Source of the DNA: Pseudochrobactrum sp. sp1633
Lineage (GTDB): Bacteria > Pseudomonadota > Alphaproteobacteria > Rhizobiales > Rhizobiaceae
Length of the DNA stretch: 64,000 nucleotides
Assembly: GCF_030376605.1 (NCBI RefSeq)
Contig: NZ_JARRAE010000004.1
Location: 62,001 to 126,000 of the forward strand
Direction: 5' to 3'
Below the pieces are notes generated by a model, which was not told where the DNA came from, did no database searches, and saw only the letters and a program-made list of their open reading frames with translations. Below are positions 29,698 to 50,116 of this stretch, piece by piece; the first letter of the stretch is position 1, and the number at the start of each line of letters is the position of its first letter. Both the position numbers and the translations under genes were made by a program.

Positions 29698-30663
29698 TTA
29701 TAATACAGGCTCAGGACGATCCTGTTTCAGCAACAATGCGCCGATTGCATCAACCTTGTGCGGATCCATCTCTTCGGTGCTTGCGGCAAACGCATTTTGC
29801 GAAGCAGACGCAGCGACAGGCTTGGTTTCAAACGGCAAGCGGGAAGGTGCCTGCGGCGCGGCCTGCGATGCATGGTAAGCAACCTGTACCGGCGCTTCAG
29901 CCACAGCAGCTTGTGTTGCAGTCGGATCAGCCGGTGCCGGTGCAAAACGCTGCTGATCTGCCGATGCAACCATGACCGGTGCGGCCGCAGGGATCCGATC
30001 GCCCTTGCCACTCGCAGCCGTATTGGTCACGTCGTAAACACTCTCGGGCATAGAGCCGTTTTTAGGCTCATAGGCTGCAGCAAGATTATAAGGTGTTTCC
30101 GGCAGCGGTGATTCCAGCGAGCCGTCTTTACGGCGCTTTTCATAGAAAGAATTACCGCCGGCAACCAGCACATAATGCATATTTCTATACGGGAATTTCA
30201 AACCAGCCGTATGGAAGAACATTGCGTTTTTCAGCTTCGGATGACGTTCGCCCTTCAAAACAGAATCGGCGGCCTCTTTGACATCCGGCAGAGCTTTGGA
30301 ATTCATAGCGCGGGTCATAACGCCCGGCGCAAACTGATTTTTCTGTCCGACAACACCGCAAACGGTTTCAGGATATTTTTCCGAAACCAGACGGTTCATC
30401 ACAACCGTGCCCACTGCAACAAGACCATCACGGCTGGAGCGGGCAGATTCAAAGAACATTGCGCGCTCAAGGCATTCGCGGTCTTTGGACGTGTAAGTGT
30501 AGGTTTTCTTGCCGTTACGGACGGTAACGCCCGATTCCTTGGCACCCTGTGCAACTTTAGCTGATTTTGAACCGGTCGAGGTGGTTGTGCAGCCCGCTAA
30601 AATGAACGGTGTGGCAACCAGAGCACCGATAAACAGTGTTTTCGCTAAATATGAGCGTTTCAA
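29698..30663 (-). CDS. Lipoprotein cell-wall hydrolase, SleB-like
   Basis: A 321-residue envelope protein. Lipobox LAGC (Cys about 25) indicates membrane anchoring. The Hydrolase_2/SleB-CwlJ domain lies at about 58-190 (ECLERAMFFESARSSRDGLVAVGTVVMNRL, with the catalytic Glu in FES, and NQFAPG). The rest is a Pro/Ala/Gln-rich tail. Probable lytic transglycosylase or amidase acting on peptidoglycan. A CtrA-type site lies about 200 bases upstream. Confidence 0.85.
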   Translation of the reverse strand: MKRSYLAKTLFIGALVATPFILAGCTTTSTGSKSAKVAQGAKESGVTVRNGKKTYTYTSKDRECLERAMFFESARSSRDGLVAVGTVVMNRLVSEKYPETVCGVVGQKNQFAPGVMTRAMNSKALPDVKEAADSVLKGERHPKLKNAMFFHTAGLKFPYRNMHYVLVAGGNSFYEKRRKDGSLESPLPETPYNLAAAYEPKNGSMPESVYDVTNTAASGKGDRIPAAAPVMVASADQQRFAPAPADPTATQAAVAEAPVQVAYHASQAAPQAPSRLPFETKPVAASASQNAFAASTEEMDPHKVDAIGALLLKQDRPEPVL

Positions 30664-30859: not shown

Positions 30860-30875
30860 TTAACGAATTGTTAAC
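30860..30875. promoter_or_regulatory. CtrA-type box upstream of the SleB-like gene
   Basis: TTAA-CGAATTG-TTAAC matches the alphaproteobacterial CtrA consensus and reads as a match on the other strand as well. It lies in the 572-base gap between phoB and the hydrolase gene, about 200 bases before the latter's start. No gene is credible in that gap. Confidence 0.5.
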
Positions 30876-46799: not shown

Positions 46800-47165
46800 C
46801 ACAGAGCTCTAAACCCAAAAGATGAGACAAGCAATCAGCTTTCAAAAACGTGATCAGGGCACAAAATCACAATTTTGCCACAAATTTTACACCTTGGCCG
46901 TCACCGTTTTACACTTGCAATACAAACACAGATTGCAAAACCATACCATCAGATTCAGTTTTGAATCCACGATTCAACATGTCCACTTCTTAGAACACGA
47001 CCACCTCATCAACAATAATTGCAAAAATATAAATCAATATATGTATAAATAAAATAAATTTAAGACAAATTATAAAATTCTATAGAATAAACTACAGAAT
47101 AATATTCAATATAACGAAATTTTACAGATTGTTAACCTAAAATTTAATCCAAAATATATTCAATT
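46800..47165. other. AT-rich non-coding stretch
   Basis: Markedly more A/T than anywhere else in the window, with a 12-base palindrome ATTCTATAGAAT (47077-47088) and many short A/T tracts. The frames here encode low-quality, biased proteins, and I see no gene. The rest of the gap to rlpA (47166-47361) has nothing I can name. Such regions are typical targets of MucR-like silencers in Brucella relatives. Confidence 0.5.
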
Positions 47166-47361
47166 TGTCACCATTTCACTGCCACATTTCCATTGCAGTT
47201 GAGCACCTGAACTTCTGTTATTTCAGAATATCAATTAACGACAGACCGATGACTGACTGCTGCTTTATCTGCAAAGCCTGTTCCCGCTCTGACACAACCG
47301 TCGTGCCTTGCTTGACGCATATTCATTATGCAACCGCAGGGTGCTGACCACGGTACGATCT

Positions 47362-47739
47362 ATGACGACAATCCGCGCCAAGCGCCTGCCTGCATTCTTC
47401 GCATTTTCCGCCGCTGTATTTATGCTTTCCGCTTTTGCAAGCACCCATGCAGAAGCCGCCGCCGCCAATTGCGGCCGCGCCTCATGGTATGCACTGACCT
47501 CCAAGACCGCATCCGGCGAACGCATGAACCCTGCCGGTATGACTGCCGCCCACCGCACCCTGCCGCTCGGCAGCAAAGTACGCGTGACCAATCAGAACAA
47601 CGGAAAATCGCTGGTCGTGCGTATTAATGACCGCGGCCCGTTCATCAAAGGCCGTGTTCTTGACTTGTCAAAAGGTGCAGCACAAAAGCTGGGCTTTATC
47701 GGCGCAGGCCATACCAAAGTTTGCTACAACAAACTTTAA
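47362..47739 (+). CDS. RlpA-like secreted protein with double-psi beta-barrel
   Basis: Septal-ring lytic-transglycosylase-family protein without SPOR domain. A signal peptide (cleavage near HAEA, about residue 32) is followed by the RlpA core: [34 protein letters not shown] and VRINDRGPF...[10 protein letters not shown], including the Asp/Arg of the barrel motif. 125 residues from the ATG at 47362; an in-frame GTG at 47341 behind GCAGG is a possible alternative. Confidence 0.85.
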
Positions 47740-47816: not shown

Positions 47817-47831
47817 TTAACCATTCTTTAA
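47817..47831 (+). promoter_or_regulatory. CtrA-type box 1 before the BTLCP gene
   Basis: TTAA-CCATTCT-TTAA, the N7 spacing of the CtrA site, about 95 bases before the start. Confidence 0.45.
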
Positions 47832-47883
47832 TAAACTCGGGCGTAGCGCGCTCCGCACAATTGACTCTTACCCGTTACAGATA

Positions 47884-47898
47884 TTAACATTTCGTTAA
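47884..47898 (+). promoter_or_regulatory. CtrA-type box 2 before the BTLCP gene
   Basis: TTAA-CATTTCG-TTAA, 27 bases before the start, second copy within 70 bases. Confidence 0.5.
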
Positions 47899-47925
47899 TA
47901 AGTAGCTGTGGCTGAGGCGTTGTGT

Positions 47926-48561
47926 ATGTTCAGTTTTGTAAACTTTAAAAATCTGACACTGTCAGCCGCAGGCTTGGTCTTAGCGCTCGGATCATCTGTC
48001 TTTATGCCTCAGGCAGTTCAGGCAGCACAAACCGGTAATCCTTTCATGGCCACCGGCGGCTTGACATCGCAGCCAATCGGTCACTACGAATTCTGCAAAC
48101 GCATGCCGAATGAATGTAACCTCACCTCTGCCCAGACAGCGCCAATCAAACTTGACCAGGCCACATGGGCAAAAATCGTGCAGGTCAATATCGAGGTCAA
48201 TGCACTGATCCAGCCAATGACTGACATGGAAATCTATGGTCAGGAAGAATACTGGACCTATTCGACCACTGTTGGTGATTGTGAAGAATATGTGCTGCTC
48301 AAGCGCCGTGAACTGGCTGAAGCCGGTTTGCCGCTCAGCTCATTGCTCATCACCGTTCTGCGTAAACCTGATGGTGAAGGCCATGCCGTACTGACAGTGC
48401 GTACAGATCGCGGCGACTTTGTTCTCGACAACCTGACCGATGCCGTTAAAAACTGGCAGGAAACCGATTACACCTACCTCAAACGACAGGCTGCCAATCA
48501 CACCGGCCGCTGGGTATCGATTGAAACACCAGGCAATCTGGTGGTCGGCGCGGTTAAATAA
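47926..48561 (+). CDS. BTLCP family transglutaminase-like cysteine proteinase
   Basis: Secreted protein of the bacterial transglutaminase-like cysteine proteinase family. Signal peptide (cleavage near VQA, about 33), then the triad Cys in VGDCEEYV, His in GEGHAVLTV and Asp in FVLDNL. 211 residues. Related proteins in proteobacteria are often tied to surface adhesion or cell-envelope processing; no partner lies adjacent. ATG 47926 after TGAGG. Confidence 0.85.
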   Translation: MFSFVNFKNLTLSAAGLVLALGSSVFMPQAVQAAQTGNPFMATGGLTSQPIGHYEFCKRMPNECNLTSAQTAPIKLDQATWAKIVQVNIEVNALIQPMTDMEIYGQEEYWTYSTTVGDCEEYVLLKRRELAEAGLPLSSLLITVLRKPDGEGHAVLTVRTDRGDFVLDNLTDAVKNWQETDYTYLKRQAANHTGRWVSIETPGNLVVGAVK

Positions 48562-48580: not shown

Positions 48581-50116
48581 TCAGGCGGTCACTCCTTCTG
48601 AGGACGTACGGTAAGCCACAGCTTCCGCAAGGTGGTGACGCTCCGCATGCACCGATCCGTCGAGATCGGCCAAAGTCCGTGCCACTTTCAACACTCTGTG
48701 GTAGGCGCGTGCTGAGAGCCTGAGCTTGTCACTCACATCATAGAGCAGTTTACGTCCTTCAGCACTCATTGAGGCTACATCCTCGAGCAAATGCGGCGGG
48801 CATGCTGCATTGGTCAGAACATGAGCGCAGCCCATCCGGCTATAGCGTTCTTCCTGTATTGCCCGCGCCCGTGCCACGCGTCCGGCCACAGTGACACTGG
48901 CCTCTGCAGCGCCGGTCAAAATCAAATCAGACGGCTTGAGTGCGGCCACCTCCACACGCAGATCAATACGGTCGAGCAAAGGCCCCGATATCCGCGCCTG
49001 ATAATCGCTGCGGCAACGCGGGCCACGAGCACAGGTAAAGCCCGGCTCACCGGCCATACCGCATTTGCACGGGTTCATCGCCGCCACCAGCTGAAACCGC
49101 GCCGGATAGCTGACACGGTGATTGGCACGAGCGATCATACATTCACCGGTTTCCAAAGGTTGGCGCAAAGAATCCAGCACTTGAGGCGAAAACTCCGGTA
49201 ATTCATCCAGAAACAACACACCATGATGTGCCATAGAAATCTCACCGGGCTTTGCCCTGTGACCGCCGCCAACCATCGCCGCCATAGAGGCCGAATGATG
49301 GGGGCTGCGAAATGGCCAGCGGTCTGTGAGCCTGCCGCCAGACAAGGTTCCCGCCACAGAGGCAATCATTGAAACATCCAGCATTTCGCGCGCGGACAAG
49401 GGCGGCAGGATACCGGACAAGCGCTGTGCCAGCATGGATTTTCCGGAACCCGGAGGCCCCGAAAAAAGCAAATTATGGTTGCCCGCAGCCGCAATCTCCA
49501 GTGCCCGTTTTGCCGTTTCCTGCCCTTTTACATCTGCCAGATCAGGAATCGCCTCAAACCCCTCGCTGAAACTCTGTAACGCAGGCTTGGGACGGGACAA
49601 CACCTGCGTGCCACGAAAATGATTGGCAAGGGCAATCAGGCTGCGCGGATTGAGAATATCCATATCCGCCCCCGCCCATGCGGCCTCACTACCGCAAGCC
49701 TGCGGGCAGATCAGGCCAAGCTCCTGCATATTAGCGGCAATAGCCGCAGGCAACACGCCGGCAACAGGAGCGATCGTGCCATCCAGCCCCAGCTCCCCCA
49801 GCACCACATAGGATTGCAGACAATCTTCCGGCAAGGCACCGACCGCCACCATCAGCCCCATAGCAATCGGCAGATCATAGTGGGAGCCTTCTTTCGGCAA
49901 ATCCGCCGGTGCCAGATTGATGGTCACTTTCTTCACCGGCATCGACAGGCCGGATGCATGCAATGCCGCCTGTACACGCTCGCGGCTTTCAGCCACCGCT
50001 TTGTCCGGCAGGCCGACAATCGACATACTCATCTTGCCCGGCGCAGCCATCACCTGCACATCAACAAGCTTGGCCTCAATCCCCTGAAAAGCAACCGTAC
50101 TGACCCGTGCAATCAT
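48581..50116 (-). CDS. comM: ComM/YifB-family AAA+ ATPase
   Basis: Mg-chelatase-like AAA+ protein; ComM is a hexameric helicase aiding branch migration in natural transformation. Lon-type N-terminal domain (about 1-165), Walker A GPPGSGKSM (about 219), Walker B VLFLDELPEF, a zinc-like insertion CKCGMAGEPGFTC...RC, and C-terminal domain. 511 residues. Convergent with the BTLCP gene across 19 bases. Confidence 0.94.
   Translation of the reverse strand: MIARVSTVAFQGIEAKLVDVQVMAAPGKMSMSIVGLPDKAVAESRERVQAALHASGLSMPVKKVTINLAPADLPKEGSHYDLPIAMGLMVAVGALPEDCLQSYVVLGELGLDGTIAPVAGVLPAAIAANMQELGLICPQACGSEAAWAGADMDILNPRSLIALANHFRGTQVLSRPKPALQSFSEGFEAIPDLADVKGQETAKRALEIAAAGNHNLLFSGPPGSGKSMLAQRLSGILPPLSAREMLDVSMIASVAGTLSGGRLTDRWPFRSPHHSASMAAMVGGGHRAKPGEISMAHHGVLFLDELPEFSPQVLDSLRQPLETGECMIARANHRVSYPARFQLVAAMNPCKCGMAGEPGFTCARGPRCRSDYQARISGPLLDRIDLRVEVAALKPSDLILTGAAEASVTVAGRVARARAIQEERYSRMGCAHVLTNAACPPHLLEDVASMSAEGRKLLYDVSDKLRLSARAYHRVLKVARTLADLDGSVHAERHHLAEAVAYRTSSEGVTA

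Follow-up and report, generated by a model that had tools for sequence, protein, structure and literature searches.

A conserved composite promoter with two CtrA-type boxes follows one lineage of rhizobial BTLCP proteases and predicts repression by CtrA

The window, by which we mean the whole stretch of 64,000 nucleotides analysed from Pseudochrobactrum sp. sp1633, carries a gene for a BTLCP cysteine protease between an RlpA-type gene and a convergent ComM/YifB-type gene, which we take to be comM (Table 1). The Peptidase_C93 domain and the C-H-D triad (C119/H153/D168, spacing 34 and 15) by which BTLCPs are recognised were both found, in agreement with a reading made from the sequence alone (the sequence-only reading) that had described a BTLCP proteinase behind two CtrA-type boxes. 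Judged by eye the protein begins with a signal-like stretch, and it is probably periplasmic. It resembles PDB 4u65_E (E 3.4e-5), annotated as a putative cystine protease and presumably LapG, a periplasmic protease; identity with LapG was however rejected, as the protein reaches 31.4 bits against an equivalog cut-off of 320 (NF045674, E 1e-7).

Table 1 Features of the BTLCP locus, in window coordinates
Feature	Position	Strand	Remarks
RlpA-type DPBB lytic transglycosylase family protein, upstream neighbour	47308..47739	+	PF03330; TIGR00413 above cut-off
Box 1, CtrA-type, TTAACCAT-N3-TTAA	47817..47831	+	TTAACCATTCTTTAA; TTAACCAT half-site at 47817-47824
-35-like hexamer TTGACT	47861..47866	+	TTGAC retained in relatives
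GANTC site (GACTC), overlaps -35	47863..47867	.	Recognition sequence of the CcrM methylase
Box 2, palindromic CtrA-type, TTAAC-ATTTC-GTTAA	47884..47898	+	TTAACATTTCGTTAA
Predicted -10, TAACAT, overlapped by box 2	47885-47890	+	Predicted
Shine-Dalgarno-like GAGG	47914..47917	+	8 bases before ATG 47926; by eye, position checked across the promoter class
BTLCP cysteine protease (Peptidase_C93), 211 aa	47926..48561	+	PF06035, E 1.2e-68
ComM/YifB-type Mg-chelatase family protein, downstream, convergent	48581..50116	-	PF01078, PF13541, PF13335; synteny

Both TTAA-N7-TTAA boxes are exact matches at the positions that had been claimed for them, and the 27 bases said to separate the second from the start codon were recounted as 47899-47925, directly before the ATG at 47926; an in-frame GTG at 47908 offers an alternative start. 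Box 2 is preceded at a distance of 17 bases by the -35-like TTGACT, and within this hexamer lies a GANTC that the sequence-only reading did not include. The resulting layout, with a GANTC near the -35 and a CtrA motif over the predicted -10, corresponds in sequence to that of the Caulobacter ctrA P1 promoter and was found in the window and in most, not all, of the relatives.

The box pattern was counted in the window and across the genome. In the window TTAA-N7-TTAA occurs three times against 0.43 expected, a count of at least three being reached in 2 of 100 shuffles, and genome-wide it occurs at 69 places as compared with 86 for the backward pattern. Given this lack of enrichment the motif by itself is no evidence of function, and the evidence lies in its conservation. 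The third full box in the window (TTAACGAATTGTTAA followed by C, 30860-30874) lies about 197 bases upstream of a minus-strand SleB-type hydrolase ORF (29698-30663; TIGR02869 at 38.8 bits, under the cut-off of 236.5) and is also near an ORF resembling a PhoB-type response regulator. Upstream of the RlpA-type gene an AT-rich stretch (47121-47147) holds TTTACAGATTGTTAACC and two-mismatch matches to a CtrA-like pattern. In 600 bases scanned upstream of ctrA in the same genome we found half-sites and GANTCs and no full TTAA-N7-TTAA.

The two boxes had been proposed for a comparison across Brucella, Ochrobactrum and Pseudochrobactrum, and when this was carried out the idea survived. In each of the seven Pseudochrobactrum genomes examined the two boxes stand at unchanged positions, with GACTC in between. 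Among the best 80 of at least 578 confirmed relatives, which form our set of named loci and in which the classical pathogenic Brucella species are absent, both full boxes were present in 19/19 Brucella/Ochrobactrum, 3/3 named Pseudochrobactrum, 3/3 Falsochrobactrum and 2/2 Paenochrobactrum loci. We divided these 80 loci into a Brucellaceae-type group (32) and the rest (48), a grouping of our own in which some isolate labels were assigned here. Within the same best 80, the Brucellaceae-type loci have both full boxes in 32/32, TAACCAT in 29/32 and GANTC in 30/32, and the other loci a full box 2 in 47/48, TAACCAT in 45/48, a full box 1 in 18/48 and GANTC in 26/48. The two boxes are thus not equivalent, as outside the Brucellaceae-type group the complete box 1 survives in no more than 18 of 48 loci, against 45 for TAACCAT. 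A locus of the Pseudochrobactrum type, with 91% protein identity and the same neighbours, stands on JAHREI010000001.1, which is titled Bacillus subtilis strain SK6B4 and is probably a mislabelled assembly.

A composite score was calculated from TTGAC and TTAAC-N5-GTTAA, with a maximum of 15. Among the best 80 of at least 578 relatives 68 loci scored 15, 11 scored 14 and one scored 13, so that 79 reached at least 14. Over 190 BTLCP loci, a set that includes all paralogs and duplicates, 109 scored 14-15, as compared with 1 of 950 dinucleotide shuffles of those regions. In order to describe the anatomy of the promoter we used 109 distinct promoters from 131 loci with a score of at least 14, a selection through which the conservation of TTGAC, TTAAC and GTTAA in this set is partly built in. 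The conserved unit consists of TTAACCAT, then a -35-like ATTGAC (often ATTGACTC, which contains GANTC), then TTAACnTTTyGTTAA at the place of the -10. TTGAC is present in 106 of the 109 (the other three are off by one letter), with an A before it in 94%, and the spacer from TTGACT to box 2 measures 17 bases in 82 promoters, 18 in 21, 16 in five and 15 in one. A GANTC overlaps the -35 in 66/109 and is missing from it in 43/109; in the Bartonella loci TTGAC is retained although the GANTC is lost. Box 2 follows the consensus given above, its central TTT being conserved at 88-95%, and the -10, which we infer to be TAACnT inside box 2, would be a poor match to a -10. A Shine-Dalgarno sequence and ATG were recognisable in 85 promoters, the remaining 24 having none by our crude rule.

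A search for TAACCA, which played no part in the selection of these promoters, over positions -46 to -30 relative to TTGAC found it in 99 of the 109, at 42-44 bases upstream in 64 and at 32-33 in 35. These two registers lie about one helical turn apart, with no occurrence elsewhere between -46 and -30; in the rest of the 90 bases examined TAACCAT appears nine times (seven at -90, one at -13 and one at -11). TTAACCAT is a known CtrA half-motif. Either TTAA-N7-TTAA or TTAACCAT at a conserved position, the sequence signature expected of a CtrA-bound promoter, is found here.

A search of 151 genomes from the family for the composite pattern (TTGAC, 15-20 bases, TTAAC-N5-GTTAA) gave 85 matches, in 74 genomes, against eight for the backward pattern; the 77 genomes without an exact match include some in which degenerate forms escape it. 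This search supersedes a smaller one with 24 matches in 22 of 61 genomes. BTLCP genes follow 69 of the 85 matches (45 among those listed, 22 when 37 of the 40 other places were read and two from BTLCP coordinates), one match reads such a promoter in antisense, and 15 lie elsewhere. Four of these 15 (L262, L263, L267 and L271) have a TTAAC-N5-GTTAA box on the other strand, its beginning 56 bases ahead of an ORF with the N-terminus MTKVLTD; the one such ORF scanned matched MinC_N; L270 is similar to them, with no ORF start found there. The minC leaders share the box and not the full layout, the TTGAC facing the other way. In S. meliloti minCD is reported as directly controlled and repressed by CtrA, so by analogy the minC-leader boxes are an independent sign that boxes of this kind can be CtrA sites in the family. 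No minC was found in the window's own genome with a 93-residue fragment as query, and the minC comparison therefore rests on other genomes. Two genomes of one genus (L246 and L247) have TTGACTCCAGTGTGCGCTCAGATGC-TTAACAAnTGGTTAA and flanks in common, at a place that does not precede a BTLCP.

Because the 81 loci that do not belong to the class, including the window genome's second BTLCP (L188), score at most 13, we rejected the idea of a promoter shared by every BTLCP paralog. The distribution was examined on a tree with 128 BTLCP rows, of which 57 carry the composite promoter and 71 do not; it was built by a quick search without bootstrap and without HvyA or any named Sinorhizobium sequence. 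The composite label requires four changes on this tree compared with 42.1 in shuffles, none of 500 shuffles being as low. The window gene falls in a set of 59 rows (SH-aLRT 95), of which 56 have the composite and three lack a good one; the second BTLCP of its genome falls outside, and the only composite row outside, L021, is weakly placed. The promoter follows one orthologous BTLCP lineage. In six of the 71 rows without the composite (five genes; upstream regions L012, L158/L235, which are one gene, L200, L202 and L222) and in none of the 57 composite rows we noted TTTGANTCRAA, a palindrome-like motif centred on GANTC.

The neighbourhoods of the lineage differ, with comM-gshB in one group and infC-hydrolase-MbfA-like in another, and the promoter is kept in both; because gene order varies in this way, the promoter travels with the gene. 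Hitch-hiking with the rlpA-comM neighbourhood was rejected, since the promoter has a different neighbourhood in Agrobacterium and in a genome of 6.9 Mb (G101). In A. tumefaciens B6 the BTLCP with the composite promoter (L148), which belongs to the window gene's clade, adjoins a Rubrerythrin-VIT1 protein, presumably the domain make-up of MbfA. As Atu0251 is named MbfA, L148 is very probably Atu0252 and an ortholog of the window gene. In S. meliloti mbfA is SMc00359, from which we would expect the mbfA-linked member of the lineage there to be numbered near SMc00359 and not to be SMc00998. The Atu0252-type lineage is probably distinct from those of HvyA, SMc00998 and NGR_c12490, and in the open-access literature searched we found no study of its promoter. 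In three Agrobacterium-type genomes (L174, L175 and L176) there is also a BTLCP copy that is divergent and has a TAG in frame.

Besides the papers cited below, PMC4433202, PMC8656257 and PMC7540006 were drawn on. The window's genome encodes CtrA (G000:C53:209065-209667, 98% identical to a CtrA query across 201 residues) and two proteins of the ROS/MucR family. CtrA control of BTLCP genes is already published for HvyA, SMc00998 and NGR_c12490; at PhvyA CtrA activates and MucR1/2 represses, SMc00998 of S. meliloti has a CtrA site and peaks in G1, and NGR_c12490 of S. fredii has a CtrA ChIP signal (PMC4241560). HvyA (CCNA_00166) of Caulobacter crescentus shares with the window gene the BTLCP domain, the triad spacing of 34 and 15, a promoter linked to CtrA (by prediction in the window gene) and an organism that encodes ROS/MucR-family proteins. 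HvyA is CtrA-activated, G1-specific and part of a capsule-export cluster; the window gene differs in its setting, with rlpA and comM as neighbours, and in the CtrA-type box that covers its predicted -10. SMc00998 and NGR_c12490, compared by description, resemble the window gene as BTLCP genes of rhizobia that have a CtrA site or ChIP signal. Atu0252, very probably the ortholog, has the composite promoter and a place in the same clade, although its neighbours are infC, a hydrolase and an MbfA-like gene instead of rlpA and comM. Among other promoters, CtrA motifs in Caulobacter activate near the -35 and repress over the -10, and in ctrA P1 a GANTC stands at -28/-29 and a TTAA motif for CtrA at -14 (PMC4287350); the promoter in the window has, relative to its predicted start, a GANTC between -35 and -10 and a TTAA motif over the -10, but with a full palindrome at box 2 where P1 has a half-site, and with an additional TTAACCAT upstream. 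In Caulobacter CtrA is found in G1 and in late S phase; MucR is able to protect GANTCs from methylation, and hypomethylation was seen at a synthetic promoter that carries CtrA boxes, a result read as competition between CtrA and CcrM (PMC5172544). In S. meliloti the depletion of CtrA is described as altering ctrA P1/P2 only mildly. Francis et al. reportedly performed CtrA ChIP-seq in Brucella; in the open-access literature searched we found no CtrA ChIP data for Brucella or Pseudochrobactrum.

The near-unchanged promoter in many relatives suggests that CtrA controls the BTLCP gene. The cell-cycle control by CtrA put forward in the sequence-only reading is supported in so far as the boxes are conserved, CtrA is encoded and BTLCP genes under CtrA have a precedent (PMC4241560), and needs revision in that the boxes are unequal and the position of box 2 predicts repression. 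The reading that we consider somewhat more probable than all others taken together is that this is the promoter of one BTLCP lineage, with both TTAA boxes as CtrA sites and phosphorylated CtrA repressing through box 2. Repression rather than the activation known from hvyA is predicted because box 2 occupies the place of the -10; this would follow the scheme published for Caulobacter ctrA P1, and the repression of minCD in S. meliloti is in keeping with it. Phosphorylated CtrA on box 2 would shut off the core promoter, assisted from box 1 for as long as CtrA is present, and the drop in CtrA at the start of S phase would open the promoter. The methylation state of the GANTC (GcrA/CcrM) would tune the time of opening, the site perhaps acting as a timer, and the activity of the protease on envelope or surface proteins would be confined to one part of the cycle. 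Counting against this reading are the mild effect of CtrA depletion on ctrA P1/P2 in S. meliloti, the poor -10, the promoters with no recognisable Shine-Dalgarno sequence and ATG or with the Shine-Dalgarno sequence 39 bases or more from box 2, the GANTC missing in 43 of 109, the 77 genomes lacking an exact match and the three lineage members lacking a good composite.

The nearest studied promoters, those of hvyA and of the G1-peaking SMc00998, point to activation by CtrA in G1 and argue for the opposite sign. If this held here, CtrA opposed by MucR would activate as at hvyA and yield a G1-phase protease, with box 1 as an upstream activator site phased to touch RNA polymerase. Besides those promoters and the ChIP signal at NGR_c12490 (PMC4241560), the two ROS/MucR-family genes and the spacing of the two TAACCA registers, as expected for a polymerase-facing site, speak for activation, which we nevertheless regard as unlikely, at about one chance in four. 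Activating CtrA motifs in Caulobacter sit near the -35 and those over the -10 repress (PMC4287350), and here box 2 covers the predicted -10 and the predicted start is some 60-80 bases away from box 1; moreover Atu0252, to whose lineage the gene apparently belongs, did not complement an hvyA deletion. Were box 2 an activator site at the -35, transcription would start at about 47919-47923, past the GAGG at 47914-47917. In 71 of the 85 scorable loci fewer than 39 nt lie between the 5' end of box 2 and the start of the Shine-Dalgarno sequence (39 bases or more in 14); in the window and in those 71 a box 2 at the -35 would place the transcription start past it, which counts for box 2 as the -10.

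That box 2 serves as core promoter or operator for a different regulator and resembles TTAA-N7-TTAA by coincidence is improbable in our estimation: the box is palindromic and its central TTT is conserved beyond the CtrA consensus, but the first central T could be explained by -10 function alone, TTAACCAT, a known CtrA half-motif, is kept upstream at fixed spacing, and like boxes precede minC, which CtrA controls directly in S. meliloti. Two functionless motifs in an AT-rich intergenic background would agree with the missing genome-wide enrichment, yet the fixed spacing and strong conservation over 109 distinct promoters, the single shuffle in 950 that reaches the score and the 69 of 85 composite matches before one gene family leave this hardly credible, and as an account of the conservation chance was rejected.

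CtrA control of BTLCP genes is of a known kind; what appears new is a lineage with its own deeply conserved promoter layout and a predicted opposite sign. More speculatively, rhizobia may have two CtrA-linked BTLCPs in opposite phases, a HvyA/SMc00998 type activated in G1 and an Atu0252 type repressed at the -10 and released in early S together with GANTC methylation; we hold this as a tentative idea that is more probably wrong than right. If it were true, periplasmic proteolysis would alternate through the rhizobial cell cycle and the two-register TTAACCAT site would be part of a two-site repression module. Across the genomes sampled, the composite promoter belongs almost exclusively to one gene lineage, and it has outlasted rearrangement of its neighbours, which suggests that the timing of the protease is under selection. 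The promoter offers a ready test of whether CtrA sites at the -10 repress in Rhizobiales, and it draws attention to a little-studied, probably periplasmic protease of Brucellaceae, Bartonella, Phyllobacterium and Agrobacterium.
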